Below are positions 698 through 41,812 of a DNA stretch of 41,812 nt, piece after piece (position 1 is the first letter of the stretch; the number at the start of each line of letters is the position of its first letter). This stretch comes from Paludibacter sp. Its GTDB lineage: Bacteria; Bacteroidota; Bacteroidia; Bacteroidales; Paludibacteraceae. The notes beneath the pieces are model-generated. The model was not told the DNA's origin. It worked only from the letters and a program-made list of their open reading frames with translations, and did not search any database. The position numbers and the translations under genes were made by a program. The stretch covers positions 1 through 41,812 of the forward strand of contig JAAFGX010000029.1 of NCBI GenBank assembly GCA_010365115.1, read 5' to 3'.

Positions 698-3600
698 ATG
701 CGTAGATACATCTTTTTAATTGTTTTATTATTTATTCTACTGTTTCATTCAGTGGCACAATATAGCTACAAAATAGAAACATTGAATACGATAAATGGAC
801 TCGCACAAAATGATATCAATGCGATATTACAAGATTCTAAAGGTTTTATGTGGATCGGCACAAATGGAGGTTTAAACAAATTCGATGGTTACACTTTTAC
901 ATTGTTTGATGCTGATAATACAGGCAATAAATTAAATACTGGCATTATTAATGCAATAGTTGAAGACAGGAAAAAAAATATCTGGATTGGATCGGGAGAT
1001 AGGGGACTTTTTATGTATAATTCAGACAAAGAGTCTTTTCAACAAATTATCAGTGAAAAAATAACCGGAGTGGTAAATAGTCTTTCAATTGATAAAAATA
1101 ATATATTATGGATAGGGGCATCAAAAGGGGTTTTCAAACTTGATTTGATTCAAAATAATAATAGAAAAATTTCAGTTTGCATATTTCCAAAATCAACTTT
1201 TGATTATAATGTAAGAGAAGTGTTATCGGAGGGTATAGAAACATTAATATTAAATACGTACGGCAATTTATATGTATCAAGCTATAAATCAAACGATATC
1301 AAACTTTTACAGACTCCAAATGTGCTTAACTCAACTATTATCAATATTACAAACCTTTATAATAAAATTCTTTTACTTTATAATAATGGTGAACTTTATA
1401 TTAGCGATGAAAAAGGGGGAAAATTTAAAAGATTATTTTTTTCTCCCATATTAAAAATACTATCAGTAAAAAAATCGCGCATATATTTTAATACATTTAA
1501 TGGAGTTTGTTTTTCAGATTTAAAACATGATCAGTTATCAGAACCAATTTATGTTTTAAAAAACAAAAAAAATAAGATTAAAACAACATTTATTGATGAC
1601 AACGACATACTTTGGATAGGAACTTACAGATCAGGGATTACGACGATAAAACCAATTTTAAAAAATTTCAGACATTACAAATCAGCGTCCAAAGAAGGAA
1701 GTATTAGTGATGATAAAGTTGAGCAAATAGTAGAGGATAGTAAAAAAAACTTATGGATTGCGACCCGTAGTGGGGGTATTGATATGTTGCCTGCTGGTAA
1801 AGAAAACTATAACACTAATTTCCAGCTTATTTCGAGTATAAAGAGTGAGTGTATAGCTGTTGCAGTGCCAAAAGAACCAAGTAATTACAAGTTGCTTTTT
1901 GGAGATTTGAATGGCGTTAATGGAATTAAACAATTCAAGGTATCAGATATTTTATTTCGCATAAATTTTATTGATCACAATAAAATGAGTGAAAACTACA
2001 TCATGAGCATGTATTGTGATAAGTCATATTATTGGATAGGTTACCACAGTCAAGGACTTGTCCGACTCAACAGCGATAATCAACATGATATTAAACGGTT
2101 TATTCATAACGAGAAAGATAGCACTTCAATTAGTTCAGATATTATCAGAAGTTTTTGTAAGGACTCAAAGGGAAACCTTTGGGTGGGAACTTCAAACGGA
2201 ATCTCAATACTCACTTCTCAAGAACAATCGAAAGATACCCCAATTTTTATTCGATTGAAGAAATCAGATAAAAAAATATCATTATCGAACAATTATATTT
2301 TGCCTTTGCATGAGAGTAAAGATGGTTCTATGTGGGTAGGAACATTTGGTGGTGGTTTGAATAGATTAAGATTGAATAGTAATTTTCAAATAATTGAGAT
2401 TACACATTACACAACAAAAAGCGGACTTTCAGATAATACCATTAAAGGAATTGAAGAGGACGAAGCTGGGAATATTTGGATATCAAACAATAGGGGAATT
2501 AACCGGATAAATCCGAGGACTGGGGAGGTGAAAAATTATGATATAAACGATGGTTTACAAGATTATGAGTTTAGTGAATTATCAAGTTGCAGACGTAACA
2601 ATGGTGAAATGTTATTTGGGGGAGTAAATGGATTTAATGCTTTTTTCCCAAATGAGATAAAAGATAATAATGTAGAGCCCAGACTTCAGATTACCAATTT
2701 TGTCCTTTTCAACAAGAACGTAAAACCGTTGGAAAAGGTGAAAAATAGGATTCTTCTTGAACATTCCATTTCAAATACTAAACAGATAGTTTTGGATTAT
2801 GATCAAAATAGTTTTTCCTTTGAGTTTGCAGCATTACATTATATAGCTTCAAAAAAAAATAAGTATAAGTTTCAGTTAGTAGGTTTTGATGAAACCCCTA
2901 TCATAGTTACTGCTTCAAATAGAATTGCAAAATATACTAATTTGAAGTCAGGGAAATATAGATTTATACTCTCGGCATCAAATAACGATGGAATTTGGAT
3001 AAAAAACCCAATACGTATTGACATTGTAATTAGGCCTCCTTTTTGGGCACGTTGGTACGCATATTTAACGTATTTGTTGTTGATTATAGTTTTGATATGG
3101 TACATACGAAGGAGTATTATTGTTTCCCAAAAACAAAAATTCGAAATTCTTAAAGCCAATCATGAAAGCGAGCAGACGCAAAAAATGGCTGACTTAAAAA
3201 TGAATTTTTTTATGGATATTTCTCATGAGTTTAGAACTCCACTTACCCTTATAATGGCTCCACTTCAAAAAATTATTGAGGAAAACAAAGAGAAGCTTAA
3301 TAAAGAAATTTATTCTAATTTATTAATTATCCAGTCCAATGCCAAAAGTTTGTTCCGATTGATCAATCAATTATTGGATTTCTCCAAAGTAGAACAACAA
3401 AAAATGATATTACGTCCGAATGAAGGTGATATTTGTGCATTCAGTCAGCAAATTATTCATCAATTTGAATCTTGGGCTGACGAAAAAAATATAAATTTAA
3501 GTTTCAAATCTAAAGTTGCAAGTATATTGCTGTGGTTTGATGAGGGATTAATGGAACAAATATTTTATAATATTATTTCCAATGCCATTAAACACTGTCG

Positions 3601-4708
3601 AGTTGATGGTCATGTTATGTTAGAAATTGAAGCTTTTGAGAGTAAAATAATAATTTCTGTATCTGATGAAGGATTCGGAATTCCGAAAAATTTAGTGTCT
3701 AAAATTTTTGAGAGGTTTTTTAGCCAGACAGACATAAACTCGCAAAACGTTAAAGGAACTGGGATAGGTTTATCACTTACAAAAAGTCTGATTGAACTTC
3801 ATGGTGGTAAGATTTGGGTTGAAACGGAAGAAGGCGTAGGAAGTACATTTTTTTTAGAATTAGAACTTAACACAAATGTCGCACAACAAAATAACACTAA
3901 AAAAGAGGAAAATTCTTTCGAAATTAAAAATGTTATAACTGTAAATAATGAAGAAAAGAATACTTTATTAATAGTAGATGACAATTCTGAAATTATAGAA
4001 TTGCTCGTGAGCATATTTTCAGATATATATATCATAATGACTGCAAGAGATGGAGAGGAAGCTTTAGAAAAATGCACATTATATCTTCCAGATATTGTTT
4101 TGTCAGATGTAATGATGCCAAAGATGGATGGACTTACACTTTGTCAAAGAATTAAAACGAATGAACGAACTTCACATATCCCAATTGTATTACTCACTGC
4201 GCGTGGCAGTACTGATGATTTTATAGAAGGCATGTCCGTACATGCTGATGCTTATTGTTCAAAACCTTTCGATATTAAAGTTTTAAAAGCAACTTTAGGT
4301 TCAGTATTATATAACCGTTTGACTTTACGTACTAAATTCAAAAGCAATTTGTCATTTACCCCTTCTGAGATAACTACAAGTGCTTTAGATGAAAAATTCC
4401 TTAATAAACTGTTGAGAATTATTGAGCAAAATTTATCAAATTCTGATTTTACAGTTGAGTTTATAGCAACTGAGATGGGGTATGATCAAGAGATTCTGAA
4501 TAAGAAATTAAAATCCATTACAGGACAAACGGCAAAGCCATTTGTTCGCATTGTTAGGCTTAAGAGAGCTGCAGAGATGCTTAAAACCAAAAGATATTCT
4601 ATATCGGATGTAACATACGAAGTTGGCTTTACCGATTTAAAGTATTTCCGTGAATGTTTCAAAACTGAGTTTGGAGTTTCTCCGTCAGATTATATGAACG
4701 GGATTTAG
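698..4708 (+). CDS. Hybrid two-component system sensor/regulator (HTCS)
   Basis: One-protein signalling system that senses a glycan fragment in the periplasm and controls the adjacent PUL. Order of parts in 1336 residues: signal peptide/anchor (about 1-20); two-component propeller repeats (at least nine WIGT-like blades, for example WIGTNGGL and WVGTFGGG); a Y_Y_Y domain (about 690-775); a transmembrane segment (about 787-803); histidine kinase with SHEFRTP, phospho-acceptor His843; ATPase with N box (NIISNAIKH) and GTGIGLS near 1021; receiver domain with acceptor Asp1137 (LSDVMMPKMDG) and the KP motif near 1188; C-terminal AraC-type DNA-binding domain (about 1230-1334). All catalytic residues are present and the length is normal for the family. 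It is transcribed in the same direction as the PUL. The likely targets are the promoters at 4849-4909 and 37690-37750, which is inferred. Confidence 0.96.
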   Translation: MRRYIFLIVLLFILLFHSVAQYSYKIETLNTINGLAQNDINAILQDSKGFMWIGTNGGLNKFDGYTFTLFDADNTGNKLNTGIINAIVEDRKKNIWIGSGDRGLFMYNSDKESFQQIISEKITGVVNSLSIDKNNILWIGASKGVFKLDLIQNNNRKISVCIFPKSTFDYNVREVLSEGIETLILNTYGNLYVSSYKSNDIKLLQTPNVLNSTIINITNLYNKILLLYNNGELYISDEKGGKFKRLFFSPILKILSVKKSRIYFNTFNGVCFSDLKHDQLSEPIYVLKNKKNKIKTTFIDDNDILWIGTYRSGITTIKPILKNFRHYKSASKEGSISDDKVEQIVEDSKKNLWIATRSGGIDMLPAGKENYNTNFQLISSIKSECIAVAVPKEPSNYKLLFGDLNGVNGIKQFKVSDILFRINFIDHNKMSENYIMSMYCDKSYYWIGYHSQGLVRLNSDNQHDIKRFIHNEKDSTSISSDIIRSFCKDSKGNLWVGTSNGISILTSQEQSKDTPIFIRLKKSDKKISLSNNYILPLHESKDGSMWVGTFGGGLNRLRLNSNFQIIEITHYTTKSGLSDNTIKGIEEDEAGNIWISNNRGINRINPRTGEVKNYDINDGLQDYEFSELSSCRRNNGEMLFGGVNGFNAFFPNEIKDNNVEPRLQITNFVLFNKNVKPLEKVKNRILLEHSISNTKQIVLDYDQNSFSFEFAALHYIASKKNKYKFQLVGFDETPIIVTASNRIAKYTNLKSGKYRFILSASNNDGIWIKNPIRIDIVIRPPFWARWYAYLTYLLLIIVLIWYIRRSIIVSQKQKFEILKANHESEQTQKMADLKMNFFMDISHEFRTPLTLIMAPLQKIIEENKEKLNKEIYSNLLIIQSNAKSLFRLINQLLDFSKVEQQKMILRPNEGDICAFSQQIIHQFESWADEKNINLSFKSKVASILLWFDEGLMEQIFYNIISNAIKHCRVDGHVMLEIEAFESKIIISVSDEGFGIPKNLVSKIFERFFSQTDINSQNVKGTGIGLSLTKSLIELHGGKIWVETEEGVGSTFFLELELNTNVAQQNNTKKEENSFEIKNVITVNNEEKNTLLIVDDNSEIIELLVSIFSDIYIIMTARDGEEALEKCTLYLPDIVLSDVMMPKMDGLTLCQRIKTNERTSHIPIVLLTARGSTDDFIEGMSVHADAYCSKPFDIKVLKATLGSVLYNRLTLRTKFKSNLSFTPSEITTSALDEKFLNKLLRIIEQNLSNSDFTVEFIATEMGYDQEILNKKLKSITGQTAKPFVRIVRLKRAAEMLKTKRYSISDVTYEVGFTDLKYFRECFKTEFGVSPSDYMNGI

Positions 4709-4848: not shown

Positions 4849-4909
4849 TTTACCCCCTATATAAACTGTAGTTTACCACCCACCATTAAAGTTTTATCAT
4901 CTATCTTTG
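4849..4909 (+). promoter_or_regulatory. Promoter and putative activator sites of the first surface-protein gene
   Basis: Two direct elements, TTTACCCCC (4849-4857) and TTTACCACC (4872-4880), start 23 bp apart, about two helical turns. A perfect -7 box TATCTTTG (4902-4909) follows. No TTTG -33 element is present; the second element sits roughly where it would be, as in an activator-dependent promoter. Nearly the same arrangement, with the same spacing, lies at 37690-37750. The natural candidate to bind it is the AraC-type domain of the upstream HTCS, which is inferred. Confidence 0.6.
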
Positions 4910-4984
4910 CAGTATTCAATAATTCTGAATTTTGGGATTATTGATATTAATTATATTTTACAACCCAATTAAATTTATTTTATT

Positions 4985-6631
4985 ATGAAACAAACAATTT
5001 TACTCTTGGGATTAGTCCCTTCAATTTCAAAAACACACAGCGTGCGTACCCAATTTTTGGGGTTGTTATTATTTTTTGGCATAAGTTCATCTACTTTTGC
5101 TGCCTCAATTAGTTACACAGGAGCATCAGGTGGCAATTGGAATGTCGCAAGCAACTGGGGTGGTGGTGTGTTGCCAGGTTCATTAGACGATGTAACTATA
5201 AATGGTAAAACAGTTGTTATTCAATCAGGAGATGCTATCACGATAAACCGCCTGTTAGTACAAACTTCAGCTACTACCGCTGGGATTTTAAATATCACGG
5301 GTGGTAGCCTGATTATCAATCAAACAACGGGTACTGCATCTAATGATGCTTGTTTTTTAATGGGTGGCACTATTAATAATTCCGCAGGAACGGTGAGTAT
5401 AACCAATGCTATAACATCAGCAACAGGTTCAGGTCTTCGCCTAGGCGCTTCAGCAGGTGCTTTTAAAGCATCCAGCACATTTAACAATACAGGTTCGGGC
5501 ACTTTAAGTGTCAGCACACCTACCTCAGGTAATGGTTATCCATGTATTATGCTGAATCAAAATGATGCAGGCTACTATCCTACTTTCACAATCGGTGGAA
5601 CCATTACATTCACACCAAATAGCGGTGCTGCAACAATGGCTATTGACTGTGGATCAACGATTGGAGCAATAATTAATGGTACAGGAACCCTCACTGCCGG
5701 AACATCAGAAAATCCGGTTAAATACTCCTTTGTGCGATCCAATACGGGCAATTCTGCAGCATATTTAATAACAATCGAAACTGGGGTAACTATCAATTAT
5801 TATGGTTCTAGTGCTTGCATTCAAGTTTCAACAGCAGGTACAACTGCGGACAAGTCCGCTACAATCATCAATAAAGGTATTATCAACTTAGGTGGTACAG
5901 TTCGTTGGCCGATTTATATCTCATCGAATAATACACTGAGTGCTTGTACATTCGAAAATCAGGGTACCATAACTGCAAATGGGGCTTTTTCTACAGGAAT
6001 TTCTGGTGTCATCTATATAGTAGGTGCAGGCATAAGTAACTTTACAAACTCTGGTAATCTGAACTTTAATACCACTGCTGACCAAACTACAGAATGTAGT
6101 GTAGTCGCAGTAAATGCAAGTACTGTAAATGCAACCATCACAAACAGCGGCACTATTAATGTTGGTTCAAGCAAAGATCTTACCAATGCTATCGTATTGG
6201 GAGACAGCAAAAGCACCTTTACTAATACTGGAACAATCAATATCGCCTCTGGAAAGATTAAAGGTATCACTGGCACTGGGAAAGCAGCATTCAACAACAA
6301 TACCGGTGCTGTAATCAATACATCAAAAACAGATGAGGCTGGTGCTTTTGATAGTAATACTATCGCATTGACAAATAACGGAACTATAAACTATAATTTT
6401 ACTACACTAAATGCAATTGTTGAAATAGTAAATGAGGAAAAGATTGTGACACCCATTAAAAATGCTATTGTCTCAAATGCAAATGGGGAACTAACAGTGC
6501 TATCTTTTTCTGGCAAAGTAATTACAACTAAAAAAGTAATCGTAGGTGAAAGCATCTCATTGCCTTCGGGAGTTTATATCATCCTTCTGACATCTGAAAA
6601 GAAGTCTTCCGTTCAAAAAATTATTATCTAG
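4985..6631 (+). CDS. Secreted beta-repeat surface protein with T9SS-like C-terminus (copy 1)
   Basis: 548 residues. An unusually long N-terminal leader (about 39 residues) ends in a hydrophobic stretch and STFA before the mature ASISYTG. The body is a Gly/Thr/Asn-rich chain of short beta-strand repeats (NxGTI, NNSG) that begins with a GGNWN...NW...P...DDVTI motif, as in beta-solenoid adhesins. The last 60 residues (LSFSGKVI...LPSGVYIILL...KIII) resemble a shortened type A T9SS sorting domain. This suggests export across the outer membrane and attachment at the cell surface, perhaps in glycan contact; no enzyme motif is seen. The N-terminal module recurs at 6769 and 39178. The start at 4985 is supported by copy 3, which shares the same N-terminus and leader. 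Confidence 0.8.
   Translation: MKQTILLLGLVPSISKTHSVRTQFLGLLLFFGISSSTFAASISYTGASGGNWNVASNWGGGVLPGSLDDVTINGKTVVIQSGDAITINRLLVQTSATTAGILNITGGSLIINQTTGTASNDACFLMGGTINNSAGTVSITNAITSATGSGLRLGASAGAFKASSTFNNTGSGTLSVSTPTSGNGYPCIMLNQNDAGYYPTFTIGGTITFTPNSGAATMAIDCGSTIGAIINGTGTLTAGTSENPVKYSFVRSNTGNSAAYLITIETGVTINYYGSSACIQVSTAGTTADKSATIINKGIINLGGTVRWPIYISSNNTLSACTFENQGTITANGAFSTGISGVIYIVGAGISNFTNSGNLNFNTTADQTTECSVVAVNASTVNATITNSGTINVGSSKDLTNAIVLGDSKSTFTNTGTINIASGKIKGITGTGKAAFNNNTGAVINTSKTDEAGAFDSNTIALTNNGTINYNFTTLNAIVEIVNEEKIVTPIKNAIVSNANGELTVLSFSGKVITTKKVIVGESISLPSGVYIILLTSEKKSSVQKIII
5081..6400 (+). repeat. Surface-protein module, copy 1
   Basis: This segment is closely similar at DNA level to 6850 to about 8090 (copy 2) and to 39274-40620 (copy 3). 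With copy 3 the similarity also extends upstream through the leader peptide, the 5' leader and the promoter. Confidence 0.85.
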
Positions 6632-36556: not shown

Positions 36557-37501
36557 ATGAAATCAATTATTTTAATATCACTGACGATATTTTGTTTTAG
36601 CAGCAGCCTTTCTTCGAAATGCTACGTTAGCTATTCGCCTAAAGAATACAAAGATTTGCCAACGGTTCATATATTTTTGGAATACCCAAATTCGGATTAT
36701 TACGTTGGATATACTATTGCTAATCGATACGACACGACTCAAACGGTGTACAATAATCACTTTGAAATATATGATGCTTTCGAGTATAAGTTTGATGGAC
36801 AAAAGATGACTAAAACAGGTAATCAGATAATACTAAACGTTGAGAGTGAATTTGCTCTTTTAATCAAAGGGAGAGCAGATTATACGGGAGGCGTTCATGG
36901 TGATGAACAGTATGTTAACATCAAGTATTTTGTTGATGGAAAACTTAAAGAGTTTACAAAGACAGAAAATTTAATTCCCTGCAATGAGTTTAGTTACGTG
37001 CAGGAGTCAACTTTACACGAATCACCCACAAAGATGAATGGAATAGTAACTGCCAATCCTTTACATCCTGTTGAAGCTTTACATTTTAAGAAGACTACTT
37101 TTAAGAATACAGGATATCAAACTTTTAATAGAGTAACATGGGAAAAATCGTTAGAAGTAAGCCATTGGTTTTTCGGAATCTGTTGTGTTCACAAAGATAA
37201 TGCAATGAATTTTCATAATGATTTGGACAAAATTGAATACAAAGCTACAAGTTCAGGTGAGTTCATTATGAAAGATGTTATCGGAGCAAAAACAGTATTC
37301 TATACCAATGATGAAAAAAGATTGTCATCGGTAGTTACCAGTGCCTTACTTCTACCAAAAAATCAGGAGCAAAATTGTAAACTTATGGTTTGGGACAGAG
37401 ATAATGATACAAAGTATTATCGCGGATATTATCCTACAAGCAAAGTAACTTTGGATGAAATTTGGGAGGGCGTTATGACAGTAAATCATTTTCGAAAGTA
37501 G
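36557..37501 (+). CDS. Secreted protein of unknown function at the end of the enzyme cluster
   Basis: 314 residues, not recognised. N-terminal signal peptide (SIILISLTIFCFSSSLSS), so exported; no lipobox and no T9SS tail. The mature part is beta-rich and aromatic. Segments that look conserved or functional are GRADYTGGVHGDEQYVNIKYFVDGK, about 110-140, with Gly-Gly-x-His-Gly-Asp-Glu; WEKSLEVSHWFFGICCVH, with adjacent Cys residues; and LMVWDRDNDTKYYRGYYP near the C-terminus. It starts 12 bp after the esterase and is the last gene before the duplicated promoter, so it is part of the same operon and probably handles the same glycan. A lyase or binding protein with a jelly-roll fold is a guess only. 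Confidence 0.6.
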   Translation: MKSIILISLTIFCFSSSLSSKCYVSYSPKEYKDLPTVHIFLEYPNSDYYVGYTIANRYDTTQTVYNNHFEIYDAFEYKFDGQKMTKTGNQIILNVESEFALLIKGRADYTGGVHGDEQYVNIKYFVDGKLKEFTKTENLIPCNEFSYVQESTLHESPTKMNGIVTANPLHPVEALHFKKTTFKNTGYQTFNRVTWEKSLEVSHWFFGICCVHKDNAMNFHNDLDKIEYKATSSGEFIMKDVIGAKTVFYTNDEKRLSSVVTSALLLPKNQEQNCKLMVWDRDNDTKYYRGYYPTSKVTLDEIWEGVMTVNHFRK

Positions 37502-37689
37502 AAAAAATCATTACAATAAATCTTCTGACTTAAATACAGTTTTCACTTAAATGTTCAAATAAAACTTAGGTGAATTCAGCATTATGAAGAATGGTCTGCT
37601 GAAAAACTCTTGTTGGAGTTTGTGTATACTGTAATGCATTAAGCCTCTTTTTACCATATTAAGTAGCACATTTGGGTGTATTTACTAAT
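37502..37689. other. Intergenic region after the enzyme cluster
   Basis: No coding sequence. Two small hairpins occur in tandem: TTCAGCA (37575-37581) with TGCTGAA (37597-37603), and AAACTC (37604-37609) with GAGTTT (37616-37621). Neither has a good T-run. They may mark the transcript end of the preceding cluster, but this is weak. Confidence 0.35.
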
Positions 37690-37750
37690 TTCACCCCCTA
37701 TAAAAGCAGTAGTTTACCACCTACCATTATAATTATATAGCCTATCTTTG
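37690..37750 (+). promoter_or_regulatory. Duplicated promoter and putative activator sites, now separated from their gene by an IS
   Basis: Elements TTCACCCCC (37690-37698) and TTTACCACC (37713-37721) start 23 bp apart, exactly as at 4849/4872. A perfect TATCTTTG -7 box (37743-37750) follows. A shared leader (CCAACCCAATTAAATTT at 37772-37788, also at about 4962) continues up to the IS left end at 37799. The original target gene is the surface protein at 39178. Confidence 0.6.
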
Positions 37751-37792
37751 CGTCGATCGTTTTATATTTTTTCCAACCCAATTAAATTTCTT

Positions 37793-37798
37793 TTATTA
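37793..37798. repeat. IS target-site duplication, left copy
   Basis: TTATTA directly flanks the left IS end and is repeated at 39173-39178. Removing the IS and one copy restores a leader matching that of copy 1 (4961-4987) except for one base. Confidence 0.85.
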
Positions 37799-37816
37799 CA
37801 ATGGTTCGTTATAAAA
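37799..37816. repeat. IS terminal inverted repeat, left
   Basis: CAATGGTTCGTTATAAAA; perfect inverted match to 39155-39172. Confidence 0.93.
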
Positions 37817-37826
37817 CAACTAAACA

Positions 37827-39044
37827 TTAGGCTGCAATTTTGCCCCAGTTCCTAAGTTCTGCTATTATTTGTTTGTTTTTAGTTGAGTTCGGGTTAATGC
37901 CGAACCTTTCAATAAATGTTTTTAAAAGTAATTCGTTGTTATACATTGTTTTATAGTCTGACATAGAGAACTGCAAATTGTCGTCTGTTTTTGTGTTTAA
38001 CCAATCAACTTTAGCTAAATTGACAGCGGTCAATGCAGCATTAAAGTGGAACGCAAGTTTATTTTGGCTACGAGCCTGACAATTGGTCAAGCCACAGTAT
38101 TGTTTTGCATCTCTGTAAAGGAATTCGATTTGAAAACGAGAACAATAGTATCTAAAGATTTTATCTGCGCTTAAATCTAAGTTTGTTGAGAAATAAATTT
38201 TCCGGGTAACTTCTTTTCCGTTTTTATAAAACAGGGCTACAGCAATTTTAATATCTCTTTTAAATGCAACAGAGTAAACTATGGCAGAATAAACTTTTAC
38301 GTGATCTTCACAAACAACTTCTGTGAAATGCTTCATGTTAAGAGATTTGAGATTGAATTTTCCGTCATATTTTTTGTTTGCGCCTTTTTTACAATTTTGT
38401 TCCCCAGTGAATTTATACTTCAAATTAGAGTCACTGCGTAATCGACTGATAAAATGCAGACCCAAAGAAAGCATTGTGTCAACGACTTCTTTCTTAGAGA
38501 AGTAGGCATCGGCAACCATATATTTTGATAAATCTTTGAAATACAAATAATTATCTTTAACTATCTGACAATAATACACTAATAAGGTCATACCTTCTAT
38601 GGGAGGTGTTTGAATTGCATTTAAATGAAATGCTGTGTTTCGCAAAACATCAATGGCAGCAAAACCGCAAATCTCTAAGCCCCATTTGGCTTTTTTTGCA
38701 CAACCTGACCAATACATATTTAGACCAAAGGTCATTTTTCCACTTTTGGAAATGTAGCTCGGATCGAAAGCAACTAAACATTCTTTAATAGATTGTTCAA
38801 GAATTAGCTTAAGATTAAAATCTTGAAAGTTGAATTTATTCTCAAAGTTAATCCGAAAGTACTGTTCGCAGTTTTTGGAAAAACGTGAGAGTTGTAGAAA
38901 ATTTATTCTACCTTTGATACTTAAAAAAAGCACTAAAACGTTTGCAATAAACTGTTTTCTTGACTCTTTTAATGTTGAAAACTTGTCTGATTCTAATGTA
39001 CTATATATCAATGATATAGCATTTGGGTGTTCGTTGGATGGCAT
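37827..39044 (-). CDS. IS4-family transposase
   Basis: 405 residues; catalyses cut-and-paste movement of the surrounding IS. The DDE residues are visible: Asp94 (AFDPSYISK), Asp179 (MVADAYFSK) and Glu307 within the IS4 signature Y-(2)-R-(3)-E-(6)-K (Tyr300, Arg303, Glu307, Lys314; YCSRFQIEFLYRDAK). Full length, with no frameshift. The stop codon lies 10 bp inside the left inverted repeat. The gene faces away from the surface-protein gene at 39178, so its own promoter would not drive that gene. Confidence 0.93.
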   Translation of the reverse strand: MPSNEHPNAISLIYSTLESDKFSTLKESRKQFIANVLVLFLSIKGRINFLQLSRFSKNCEQYFRINFENKFNFQDFNLKLILEQSIKECLVAFDPSYISKSGKMTFGLNMYWSGCAKKAKWGLEICGFAAIDVLRNTAFHLNAIQTPPIEGMTLLVYYCQIVKDNYLYFKDLSKYMVADAYFSKKEVVDTMLSLGLHFISRLRSDSNLKYKFTGEQNCKKGANKKYDGKFNLKSLNMKHFTEVVCEDHVKVYSAIVYSVAFKRDIKIAVALFYKNGKEVTRKIYFSTNLDLSADKIFRYYCSRFQIEFLYRDAKQYCGLTNCQARSQNKLAFHFNAALTAVNLAKVDWLNTKTDDNLQFSMSDYKTMYNNELLLKTFIERFGINPNSTKNKQIIAELRNWGKIAA

Positions 39045-39154
39045 ATTTGTTTGATTACGGAATAATCTGTAAATATACTGATTTCCAATGAATTACCCAA
39101 ATGTTTTAACTCTTATTTTTTAGTTATTTTTCTCATTATCAAATACTTATTTCA

Positions 39155-39172
39155 TTTTATAACGAACCATTG
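39155..39172. repeat. IS terminal inverted repeat, right
   Basis: TTTTATAACGAACCATTG; perfect inverted match to 37799-37816. Confidence 0.93.
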
Positions 39173-39178
39173 TTATTA
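39173..39178. repeat. IS target-site duplication, right copy
   Basis: TTATTA; its last base is the A of the ATG start codon at 39178, so the insertion left the reading frame intact. Confidence 0.85.
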
Positions 39179-41812
39179 TGAAACAAATAATTTTACTCTT
39201 GGGATTAGTCCCTTCAATTTCAAAAACACACAGCGTGCGTACCCTGATGTTGGGGTTACTTTTATTTTTTGGCATAAGTTCGTCAACTTTTGCTGCCTCA
39301 ATTAGTTACACAGGAGCATCAGGTGGCAATTGGAATGTCGCAAGCAACTGGGGTGGTGGTGCATTACCTACCTTATCAGACGATGTAACAATAGTAGGTA
39401 AAACCGTTTTGATTCAATCGGGTGATGCCATAACCATTAACCGTCTGATTATACAAACTTCAGCCTCTGCCGCAGGGATTTTAAATATCACGGGTGGCAG
39501 CCTCACCATCAATCAAACAACGGGTACTGCGAGTAACGAAGCCTGTATTCTTATGGGTGGAACTATTAATAACTCGGCCGGGACAGTAAGCATTACCAAT
39601 GCCATTGCCTCGGGAACGGGTGCAGGTCTTCGCCTTGCCTCTGCCAATGCCGGTACATTTTCCAGTACTTTTAACAATGCCGGAACGGGTACACTAAGTA
39701 TAAACACCACTGCTACAACCACGTCTTGGCCCTGTATCACGATAAATCAGAATACAGCCTCTACCACTCCCACTCTCACCGTGGGTGGCACCATTACGCT
39801 TACCCCAAACCCCGGCACCGTTGTGGGCGTTATTGATGTGAATGGGTCAGCTCCGGCTCAGATTAATGGTACAGGCACCATTAATATCGGCTCTGCACTC
39901 AGCCCTGTTGGATACTCTTTCTTACGATGCGCCTCCGGTAACCAGGCATCCTTCTCGGCCACTATCGAAACGGGGGTCACGCTGAATTATTATGGAAACA
40001 ATAACACCAATGTTTCTTGTCTTTACATATCCACATCGGGAACCACCGCCGCCAAATCGGCCACAATTACCAATAAGGGTACAATCAATGTTGGTGGCAC
40101 TACCCGCAATCCGATTAGTATTTCAGGAGCCAGCACCCTGAGTGGGTCAACCGCAAGTTTTGTCAATCAGGGCACTCTGACTGCAAACGGTGCTTTCGCC
40201 GGCAATACCACCCCCGGTGTTATCTTTATGGCAGGTGGCGGATATTCCAACGTTTTTACAAATTCAGGTACTATCAACTTCAACACAAGTGCCGACCAAA
40301 CTACAGACTGTAGTGTAATCAAGGTATATGGAAATACTGTAAATGCAAGTATTGCCAACAGCGGTACTATTAATGTTGATTCAAGCCAAGCGCTTACCAA
40401 TGCTATCGTTTTGACAGATAGCAAATCAACACTTACGAATACCGGAACAATCAATATAGCTACTGGTCAAATTACAGGAACATCCGGAACGGGTTATACA
40501 GGTAGTGCAGCATTCAATAACAATGCGGGTGCTTTTATTAATACATCAAAAACTAATCAAACAACAGCATTTACAAGTACTATCGCATTGACAAATAATG
40601 GGACTATAAACTATAATTTCCCAAACATTAACGGAAATGTAAATTTATCAACTTTAGGCAACTGTTCAAATTGCGATTTATCTGTTTCAAATGGCGGAGA
40701 ATTAGTTATCGATGCAACCAAAACCCTGAAAAGTCTGAGTATTGCAGCTGGTGGAAAATTGACTATCAATGCAGCGCTCACCACCACCAATGGCCTCACC
40801 CTCCAAAGCGATGCAAACGGCACAGCTACAATGTTGAATAGCGGAACGTATACAGGAACTGTTACGGCAAATCAATACTTGGGTTCTGCCCGAAATTGGT
40901 ATGTATCCAGCCCTGTACAAGCTGCAACTTCGCCTGCAAACAACATTACCCGTTATTATGAATATGTAGAGGCGGGAGATAATAATTACCCAAAAGATGG
41001 CAGCAATAATCCTATAAATATCGGAGAAACAAGTTATTGGAAGTATTGGGCGACAGGAAATTCGATGACAGTAGGTAAAGGCTATATTTCGCAAGCCAAT
41101 GCCGAAACTACAGTTTCGTTTTCGGGAACACCCAACAACGGACCTATCACAACAAGCTTCGACCTTACACGCAACGATACCAAAGGCAAAGGTTTCAACT
41201 TAGTAGGAAATCCATATCCATCGTACATCGACTGGACAGTTGTGGCAACAGCCAATCCGAACTTAGAGAATACCTATTATTACCGTACTAAAAACACGGT
41301 TAATGCTTATACTTTTGTAACATACAACGGATCAGGGAGTTCTTATGTAGTCAGCAACGGAACGGCAAATACTAACATTACCCACTTTATTCCACCCACA
41401 CAAGCATTCTGGGTGAAGGTAAAAACAAACAACAGTAATACCAAAATGTATTTCAATAACGATATGCGAGAGCATCGTGATGATAACGGCAACCTGATGA
41501 AAGCTCCCAAACAGGATCAGCGAAAAACAATACGTCTGCAAATACAAAATGGCACTGAAAGTGATGAATTATTGATTTATCAGGATGCTGCGGCAAGTAA
41601 TGAATATGACAGCTTCGACTCACCAAAAATGATGAACAACAGCGCTACAATACCCGATTTGTATAGTAAGGCAGGTAACGAACGCTTGGTAATTAATGGA
41701 TTAAATGCAGTTACCGACAATATGGAATTGCCGTTGGGTTTCAGCTTAAATGCAGCTGCTACCTTAAAACTGAAAGCCACCCAACTAAGCAATTTTGCCG
41801 AAGGCACGAAAG
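39178..41812 (+). CDS. Secreted beta-repeat surface protein, copy 3 (3' end beyond the window)
   Basis: Open from the ATG at 39178 to the window end (878 codons, no stop). The long leader (MKQIILLLGLVPSISKTHSV ... FFGISSSTFA) is almost identical to that of copy 1. The shared beta-repeat module runs to about residue 480 (ends TINYNF). After it comes a region not found in copies 1 or 2: a beta-solenoid-like stretch (LVIDATKTLKSLSIAAGGKLTI), then GSARNWYVSSPVQ, GKGFNLVGNPYPSYIDW, PPTQAFWVKV and related motifs typical of large T9SS-exported Bacteroidota proteins just before their sorting domain. A T9SS tail is expected past the window but not seen. The IS now separates this gene from its promoter. 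It reads as intact, not a pseudogene. Confidence 0.85.
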   Translation, partial: MKQIILLLGLVPSISKTHSVRTLMLGLLLFFGISSSTFAASISYTGASGGNWNVASNWGGGALPTLSDDVTIVGKTVLIQSGDAITINRLIIQTSASAAGILNITGGSLTINQTTGTASNEACILMGGTINNSAGTVSITNAIASGTGAGLRLASANAGTFSSTFNNAGTGTLSINTTATTTSWPCITINQNTASTTPTLTVGGTITLTPNPGTVVGVIDVNGSAPAQINGTGTINIGSALSPVGYSFLRCASGNQASFSATIETGVTLNYYGNNNTNVSCLYISTSGTTAAKSATITNKGTINVGGTTRNPISISGASTLSGSTASFVNQGTLTANGAFAGNTTPGVIFMAGGGYSNVFTNSGTINFNTSADQTTDCSVIKVYGNTVNASIANSGTINVDSSQALTNAIVLTDSKSTLTNTGTINIATGQITGTSGTGYTGSAAFNNNAGAFINTSKTNQTTAFTSTIALTNNGTINYNFPNINGNVNLSTLGNCSNCDLSVSNGGELVIDATKTLKSLSIAAGGKLTINAALTTTNGLTLQSDANGTATMLNSGTYTGTVTANQYLGSARNWYVSSPVQAATSPANNITRYYEYVEAGDNNYPKDGSNNPINIGETSYWKYWATGNSMTVGKGYISQANAETTVSFSGTPNNGPITTSFDLTRNDTKGKGFNLVGNPYPSYIDWTVVATANPNLENTYYYRTKNTVNAYTFVTYNGSGSSYVVSNGTANTNITHFIPPTQAFWVKVKTNNSNTKMYFNNDMREHRDDNGNLMKAPKQDQRKTIRLQIQNGTESDELLIYQDAAASNEYDSFDSPKMMNNSATIPDLYSKAGNERLVINGLNAVTDNMELPLGFSLNAAATLKLKATQLSNFAEGTK
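39274..40620 (+). repeat. Surface-protein module, copy 3
   Basis: Similarity to copies 1 and 2 varies along the segment. The first 250 bp are nearly the same as copy 1. About 39600-40250 is more diverged and visibly richer in G and C. About 40260-40490 follows copy 2, and 40510-40620 again follows copy 1. Confidence 0.8.

Follow-up and report, generated by a model that had tools for sequence, protein, structure and literature searches.

The right end of contig JAAFGX010000029.1 of Paludibacter sp. (GCA_010365115.1) raises the question of what becomes of a gene when an insertion sequence (IS) lands between its promoter and its start codon, and whether the IS family concerned is drawn to such places. 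The stretch analysed, referred to as the window, has 41,812 nucleotides and is one entire contig (G000:C116) of a 4.79-Mb draft genome of 207 contigs. Near its right end, an element of 1374 bp lies directly upstream of the gene starting at position 39178, which probably encodes a cargo protein of the type IX secretion system (T9SS). An IS4-related element has inserted once here, in the AT-rich leader of a gene that has a paralogue with the same promoter type. Overall, it is best described as an IS insertion of the ordinary kind that probably silences the gene.

The element extends from 37799 to 39172 with its transposase gene on the minus strand. Its terminal inverted repeats of 18 bp (37799-37816 at the left, 39155-39172 at the right) are identical once one is reverse complemented, and two plus-strand copies of the target duplication TTATTA flank them (37793-37798 and 39173-39178). 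The right copy provides positions −5 to −1 of the leader and, with its final base, the A of the start codon (39178-39180). The IS separates this ATG from a −7-like promoter box at 37743-37750, which lies 48 bp to the left of the element. The preliminary description of this DNA had reported the perfect repeats, the duplication, the 48-bp distance, a coding frame left untouched and a transposase running opposite to the gene, all of which were recovered: the open reading frame (ORF) from 39178 is intact and that of the transposase occupies 37827-39044 on the minus strand. It had also noted that the duplication overlaps the ATG and had placed the end of the IS immediately before the ATG; the IS itself ends 5 bp earlier. 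At this site the bases directly outside the repeats (A and T) permit a second reading, with repeats of 19 bp and a duplication of 4 bp (TATT); the 6-bp reading was favoured because relatives of the element show duplications of 5-7 bp. The insertion looks recent, and the history of the site would consist of one IS4-related element inserting once into the AT-rich leader of the 39178 gene.

The strongest control, absent from the preliminary description, is a natural empty site in the window. The paralogous gene at 4985-6631 (plus strand, 548 aa, with a T9SS sorting domain) shows 69% identity over query residues 1-506, and its promoter, leader and start (4859-5007, plus strand) are not interrupted. 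This leader matches 37700-37751, 37765-37798 and 39173-39200, and the last two matches, at 4952-4985 and 4980-5007 of the paralogue leader, overlap by exactly TTATTA. A chimeric contig was considered as the origin of the arrangement and rejected, being strongly disfavoured because both IS flanks align to one contiguous paralogous leader with precisely this overlap. The −7-like box of the native promoter, TATCTTTG (37743-37750, plus strand), is found in identical form at 4902-4909 ahead of the paralogue. The two promoters also have in common a conserved upstream block of 21 bp, GTAGTTTACCACCYACCATTA (37709-37729 and 4868-4888, plus strand), for which just two matches with up to three mismatches were found in the window and its own draft genome. 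Because the block occurs only at these two places, the 39178 and 4985 genes are probably under common control. The hybrid two-component regulator encoded nearby would be the obvious candidate, with the block as candidate operator.

The insertion would have moved the native promoter box from 47 bp to 1427 bp before the ATG. Transcripts starting there would have to run antisense through the transposase gene and past a terminator-like hairpin within it, and a convincing outward promoter that could take over from the native one is not apparent; in any read-through RNA, the AUG behind the new leader would be paired with IS sequence in a hairpin. Because of this displaced promoter, the antisense hairpin, the apparent lack of a replacement promoter and the paired AUG, we favour, with moderate confidence, a 39178 gene that is silenced or strongly reduced by the IS with its coding sequence intact; the 4985 paralogue would keep its own intact leader. 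The preliminary description had likewise considered the gene to be probably silenced or reliant on read-through, and these sequence features argue for such a loss of expression.

The terminator-like hairpin, followed by a T-run, was located at 38677-38692 on the plus strand, which is the strand of native transcription and antisense to the transposase. The surrounding region (38660-38710) has a predicted stability of −9.8 kcal/mol, reached by 2 of 200 shuffled sequences (z −2.6). On both strands of 37500-39300, three terminator-like sites were found versus a shuffle mean of 0.5, one of them being on the plus strand inside the IS. The hairpin at 38677 is also present in the closest relative of the element, which has an 89% identical transposase (genome G275). 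At the junction of IS and gene (39150-39185), a hairpin is predicted between UUUCAU of the IS and AUGAAA of the gene, and the predicted pairing probability of the AUG is 0.89-0.99 in the IS leader versus 0.48-0.81 in that of the paralogue. Structure near the start is described to tune initiation in Flavobacterium johnsoniae, where an A at −3 is given as favouring translation (PMC6847099).

Several observations weigh against silencing. The terminator-like hairpin is embedded in coding sequence, of which it may be a by-product, and the hairpin at the start is unexceptional (−6.7 kcal/mol, with 21 of 200 shuffles as stable). The duplication preserves positions −5 to −1, including the A at −3, which favours translation of any transcript that arrives. 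In a paired scan for −33 and −7 elements, four sites on the plus strand of the IS scored 9 of 10 and the native box just 7. Among these sites, the best pair by the right IS end (39046-39053, plus strand) combines an exact −33 TTTG with a −7 box, TTTGTTTG, that is without the A, and scores 9 of 10; it counts weakly against silencing. An exact TAnnTTTG box facing the gene, TACCTTTG, is present inside the IS at 38909-38916 (plus strand), about 260 bp before the ATG. Sigma-70-like sites in 37500-39300 number 12 versus 7.9 (standard deviation 2.2) in shuffles, and one of these, at 39051-39079, faces the 39178 gene. Finally, IS614 raised transcription when situated upstream of norM in Bacteroides caccae, according to the RNA evidence reported, and was also noted upstream of susC in isolates of that species (PMC7260799).

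On these grounds the IS might bring an outward promoter, complete or formed at the junction, so that the gene would be constitutive or differently regulated and not silent. Promoters carried by IS elements are the subject of a review (PMC9330008), the three sites at 39046, 38909 and 39051-39079 are candidates, and the frame and the A at −3 are left in place. However, no candidate fully matches both promoter elements. The paired scan, run without shuffle control, returned no site on the plus strand of the IS that combines an exact −7 box with an exact −33 element. The 39046 pair is weak and not conserved in the 89% relative; the 38909 box, equally weak, has no good −33 element and reads TACCATTT in that relative, and TAnnTTTG occurs in the window at chance frequency (63 found versus 61.5 expected). 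The preliminary description, which saw no outward TAnnTTTG box in the right 128 bp of the IS, was thus right in that no convincing outward promoter is apparent, but an exact box does lie further inside. These scans have little power to exclude an outward promoter, because the native box itself scores below several sites in the IS. IS614 resembles the present element in having a Bacteroidales host and in lying upstream of genes that include susC, and differs by the outward promoter and the RNA-backed activation of norM described for it (PMC7260799), whereas no convincing promoter is seen here. Activation or altered regulation is an alternative to silencing, although a rather unlikely one.

It is very unlikely that the IS is a neutral passenger of little effect, with the gene expressed only by read-through from upstream genes. 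The genes upstream of the insertion site do point in the same direction, up to 37501, but the 39178 gene has its own conserved promoter at 37709-37750. Moreover, the IS is situated downstream of that promoter, and therefore read-through from further upstream must cross the IS as well.

With silencing or strong reduction as the favoured outcome, the state of the gene might still be reversible. Precise loss of the IS at an appreciable rate would restore the leader and give phase variation of the protein, and the exact duplication and intact frame mean that such a loss would indeed restore the site. The same holds, however, wherever a simple insertion has produced an exact duplication, and ordinary IS elements rarely excise precisely. 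An IS-free allele was looked for, as had been proposed, through orthologues of the gene in 48 genomes of the genus and 358 of the family, among which none was found. When residues 1-500 of the protein were searched against the 358 family genomes (E ≤ 1e-25), the sole match outside the own genome was 36% identical, and in the 48 genus genomes (E ≤ 0.001) weaker matches of 30-44% identity were present in eight others. There is no IS-free allele for comparison because the gene has no near relative among these genomes outside its own. The on/off state once proposed for this locus is not supported, as only one state is seen and nothing suggests precise excision; we regard a switch as extremely improbable.

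The identity of the element was assessed from its transposase (405 aa, 37827-39044, minus strand), which matches DDE_Tnp_1 of Pfam with 55.1 bits (cut-off 23). The catalytic triad consists of D94, D179 and E307, as in the DDE transposases of IS4. Among 21 aligned transposases, window included, D94 and D179 are kept in all and E307 in 20. A complete YREK motif (Y300, R303, E307, K314; YCSRFQIEFLYRDAK at residue 300), likewise characteristic of IS4, was found, and the pattern Y(2)R(3)E(6)K is matched by 19 of the 21. None of the NCBIfam hits reaches its curated cut-off: the best score is that of IS701_3 (90.5 of 170 bits), followed by IS4_4 (52.4 of 250), IS4_1 (52.3 of 115), IS4_2 (48.2 of 152) and IS1634 (18.7 of 100).

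Duplications were exact at 11 sites of full-length copies, the window included, with lengths of 5 bp (three), 6 bp (five) and 7 bp (three). At seven more full-length sites (L026, L032, L033 = L080, L082, L087, L088 and L096), some with uncertainly placed ends, no exact repeat of at least 5 bp was found; four others (L030, L084, L085 and L086) reach contig ends and stand outside the count. Taking full-length and miniature copies together, 35 of 39 duplications are of 5 or 6 bp and four of 7 bp.

In the classification of De Palmenaer et al. (2008; PMC2266710), IS4 has a complete YREK and duplications of 7-13 bp, and IS701, ISH3 and IS1634 have an incomplete YREK and 4-6 bp. The present element resembles IS4 by its DDE transposase with complete YREK, its 5'-CA ends and its length of about 1.4 kb; it matches the -AATR part of the IS4 subgroup end consensus at positions 2-5, but not WTW at 14-16, and its duplications (6 bp here, 5-7 bp across relatives) differ from the 7-13 bp given there. 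With IS1634 it has short AT-rich duplications in common, mostly within the 5-6 bp of that family, but IS1634 is described as having a mostly incomplete YREK and a length of 1500-2000 bp (PMC2266710). IS701 gives the best NCBIfam score, below its cut-off, and is described with a mostly incomplete YREK and a constant 4-bp duplication (PMC2266710); a 4-bp reading is possible at this one site, but the relatives show 5-7 bp. The element was named IS4-related because its motif is that of IS4 and its duplication length that of IS701, ISH3 and IS1634. It is not a plain IS4 member and fits none of the published groups cleanly. The earlier assignment to the IS4 family calls for a qualification: the DDE and YREK motifs agree with it, the duplication length and the NCBIfam scores do not.

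In the own draft genome, searched for other copies as had been suggested, the transposase is the only match at E ≤ 0.001. Matches at this threshold occur in 43 of the 358 family genomes, and at E ≤ 1e-30 in 18 of 393 order genomes and three of 395 class genomes, the own genome being counted each time. The 89% identical transposase in G275 is the closest outside the own genome, and plasmid-borne relatives (57 records) are all less than 60% identical. The target of this 89% relative (L028, G275:C194) is an inverted repeat in its own right (AATGGTA ... TACCATT) and resembles part of the IS end. Besides the two IS ends, the own genome holds three matches to the terminal repeat with at most one mismatch. 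Among these is a relic of about 50 bp from the left end of a related IS (G000:C17:34218-34292), near a second imperfect end-like repeat and the end of an ORF, which we take to resemble an IS30-type transposase.

When the 48 genus genomes were scanned for the 17-bp end of the IS, with up to one mismatch, 262 matches were obtained, spread over 25 genomes with up to 60 in one, versus four matches for the same pattern read backwards. Forty stretches of four genomes (G268, G258, G251 and G261; G275, G278, G281 and later ones were left out) yielded 38 pairs of inverted ends with spacings of 138-475 bp (L141-L179). These are miniature derivatives of the IS family and mostly intergenic: in 33 of the 38, no ORF of at least 100 codons is open at either junction, and in the remaining five (L141, L147, L148, L176 and L177) one is, that of L141 being a start just past the junction. 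Duplications flank 28 of the 38 (17 of 5 bp, ten of 6 bp and one of 7 bp) and were not found at the other ten. Because the miniature elements show it too, the duplication length of 5-7 bp is independently supported. The BrickBuilt elements of Porphyromonas gingivalis are comparable as miniature elements of the Bacteroidales, reported always to be intergenic, and differ in their terminal repeats and in internal 23-bp tandem repeats (PMC4596501).

The overlap of the duplication with the ATG could mean that the IS family targets the leaders of start codons and that the present site is one instance of this. Two other sites are of this kind: at a distant copy (L031, G283, 46% identical transposase), the duplication ACATG overlaps the ATG of a RibD_C gene, and at a miniature element (L141, G268), ATAATA overlaps that of a DUF190 gene. 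Both starts have domain support, RibD_C from residue 2 and DUF190 from residue 8. Initial counts gave three of 55 flanks, window included, within 6 bp of a start versus 0.54% of AT-rich positions, and two of 76 flanks versus 0.63% for the miniature elements. When intergenic AT-rich controls were used and the window was left out, however, four flanks lay within 6 bp of a start versus 1.5 expected (P = 0.06, computed with 129 flanks, the actual number being 130 of the 131). Two of the four (L073 and L148) concern only putative starts, and the observed count admits ORFs open at the junction that the control excludes, a bias toward start preference. Within 10 bp of a start, seven of 130 flanks were found (four from the set of 55 and three from the miniature set), again with the window left out, versus 3.0 expected (2.3% of controls). 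The seven include L023, which is doubtful because its two junctions both show an open ORF on the same strand, as if a gene had been interrupted. Start-codon targeting beyond AT-rich intergenic DNA is not demonstrated by these counts, the excess within 6 bp not being significant; as a trait of the family it is unlikely, and it would be compatible with the other readings of the locus. The plain explanation is a preference of the elements for AT-rich intergenic DNA, which includes leaders.

The 39178 gene is open to the contig end (39178-41812, plus strand, 878 aa), with a probable continuation in contig C57, whose first ORF (155 aa) has a T9SS sorting domain at its end. Read across this join, the gene product is probably a T9SS cargo protein; the join is ambiguous because contig C163 ends in the same 94 bp. 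The term surface antigen, used before, is better replaced by T9SS cargo protein, given its place beside a polysaccharide-utilisation locus. By its predicted genes, the contig is such a locus: it contains the hybrid two-component regulator (698-4708), a SusC-like receptor (14295), a SusD-like protein (17544), two alpha-L-fucosidases, acetyl-xylan-esterase-like and other hydrolases, and T9SS cargo proteins. At the contig end, the terminal 94 bp of the window (41719-41812) are identical to the end of C163, with 74.5% identity across the last 1.1 kb, and the last 93 bp overlap the start of C57. These shared ends represent an assembly branch, caused perhaps by recent gene conversion or mixed strains.

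As a single insertion mutation with a clean natural control in the paralogue, the locus is a modestly useful case for expression tests. The insertion itself is an ordinary kind of mutation and the IS family behind it is mildly unusual, as its complete YREK with duplications of 5-7 bp clashes with the 2008 rule dividing IS4 from IS701, ISH3 and IS1634. A tentative and rather improbable proposal is that these elements form an undescribed IS4-like branch of the Bacteroidales, with a complete YREK, 5-7-bp duplications, many miniature copies and recurrent landing in AT-rich leaders, sometimes duplicating the A or the whole of the ATG, so that the IS and its miniatures would re-wire leaders across the genus. 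The wider point would lie in the IS family and its miniature derivatives rather than in the single insertion: the derivatives in the genus are a ready set for studying leader changes in a phylum largely without Shine-Dalgarno sites.

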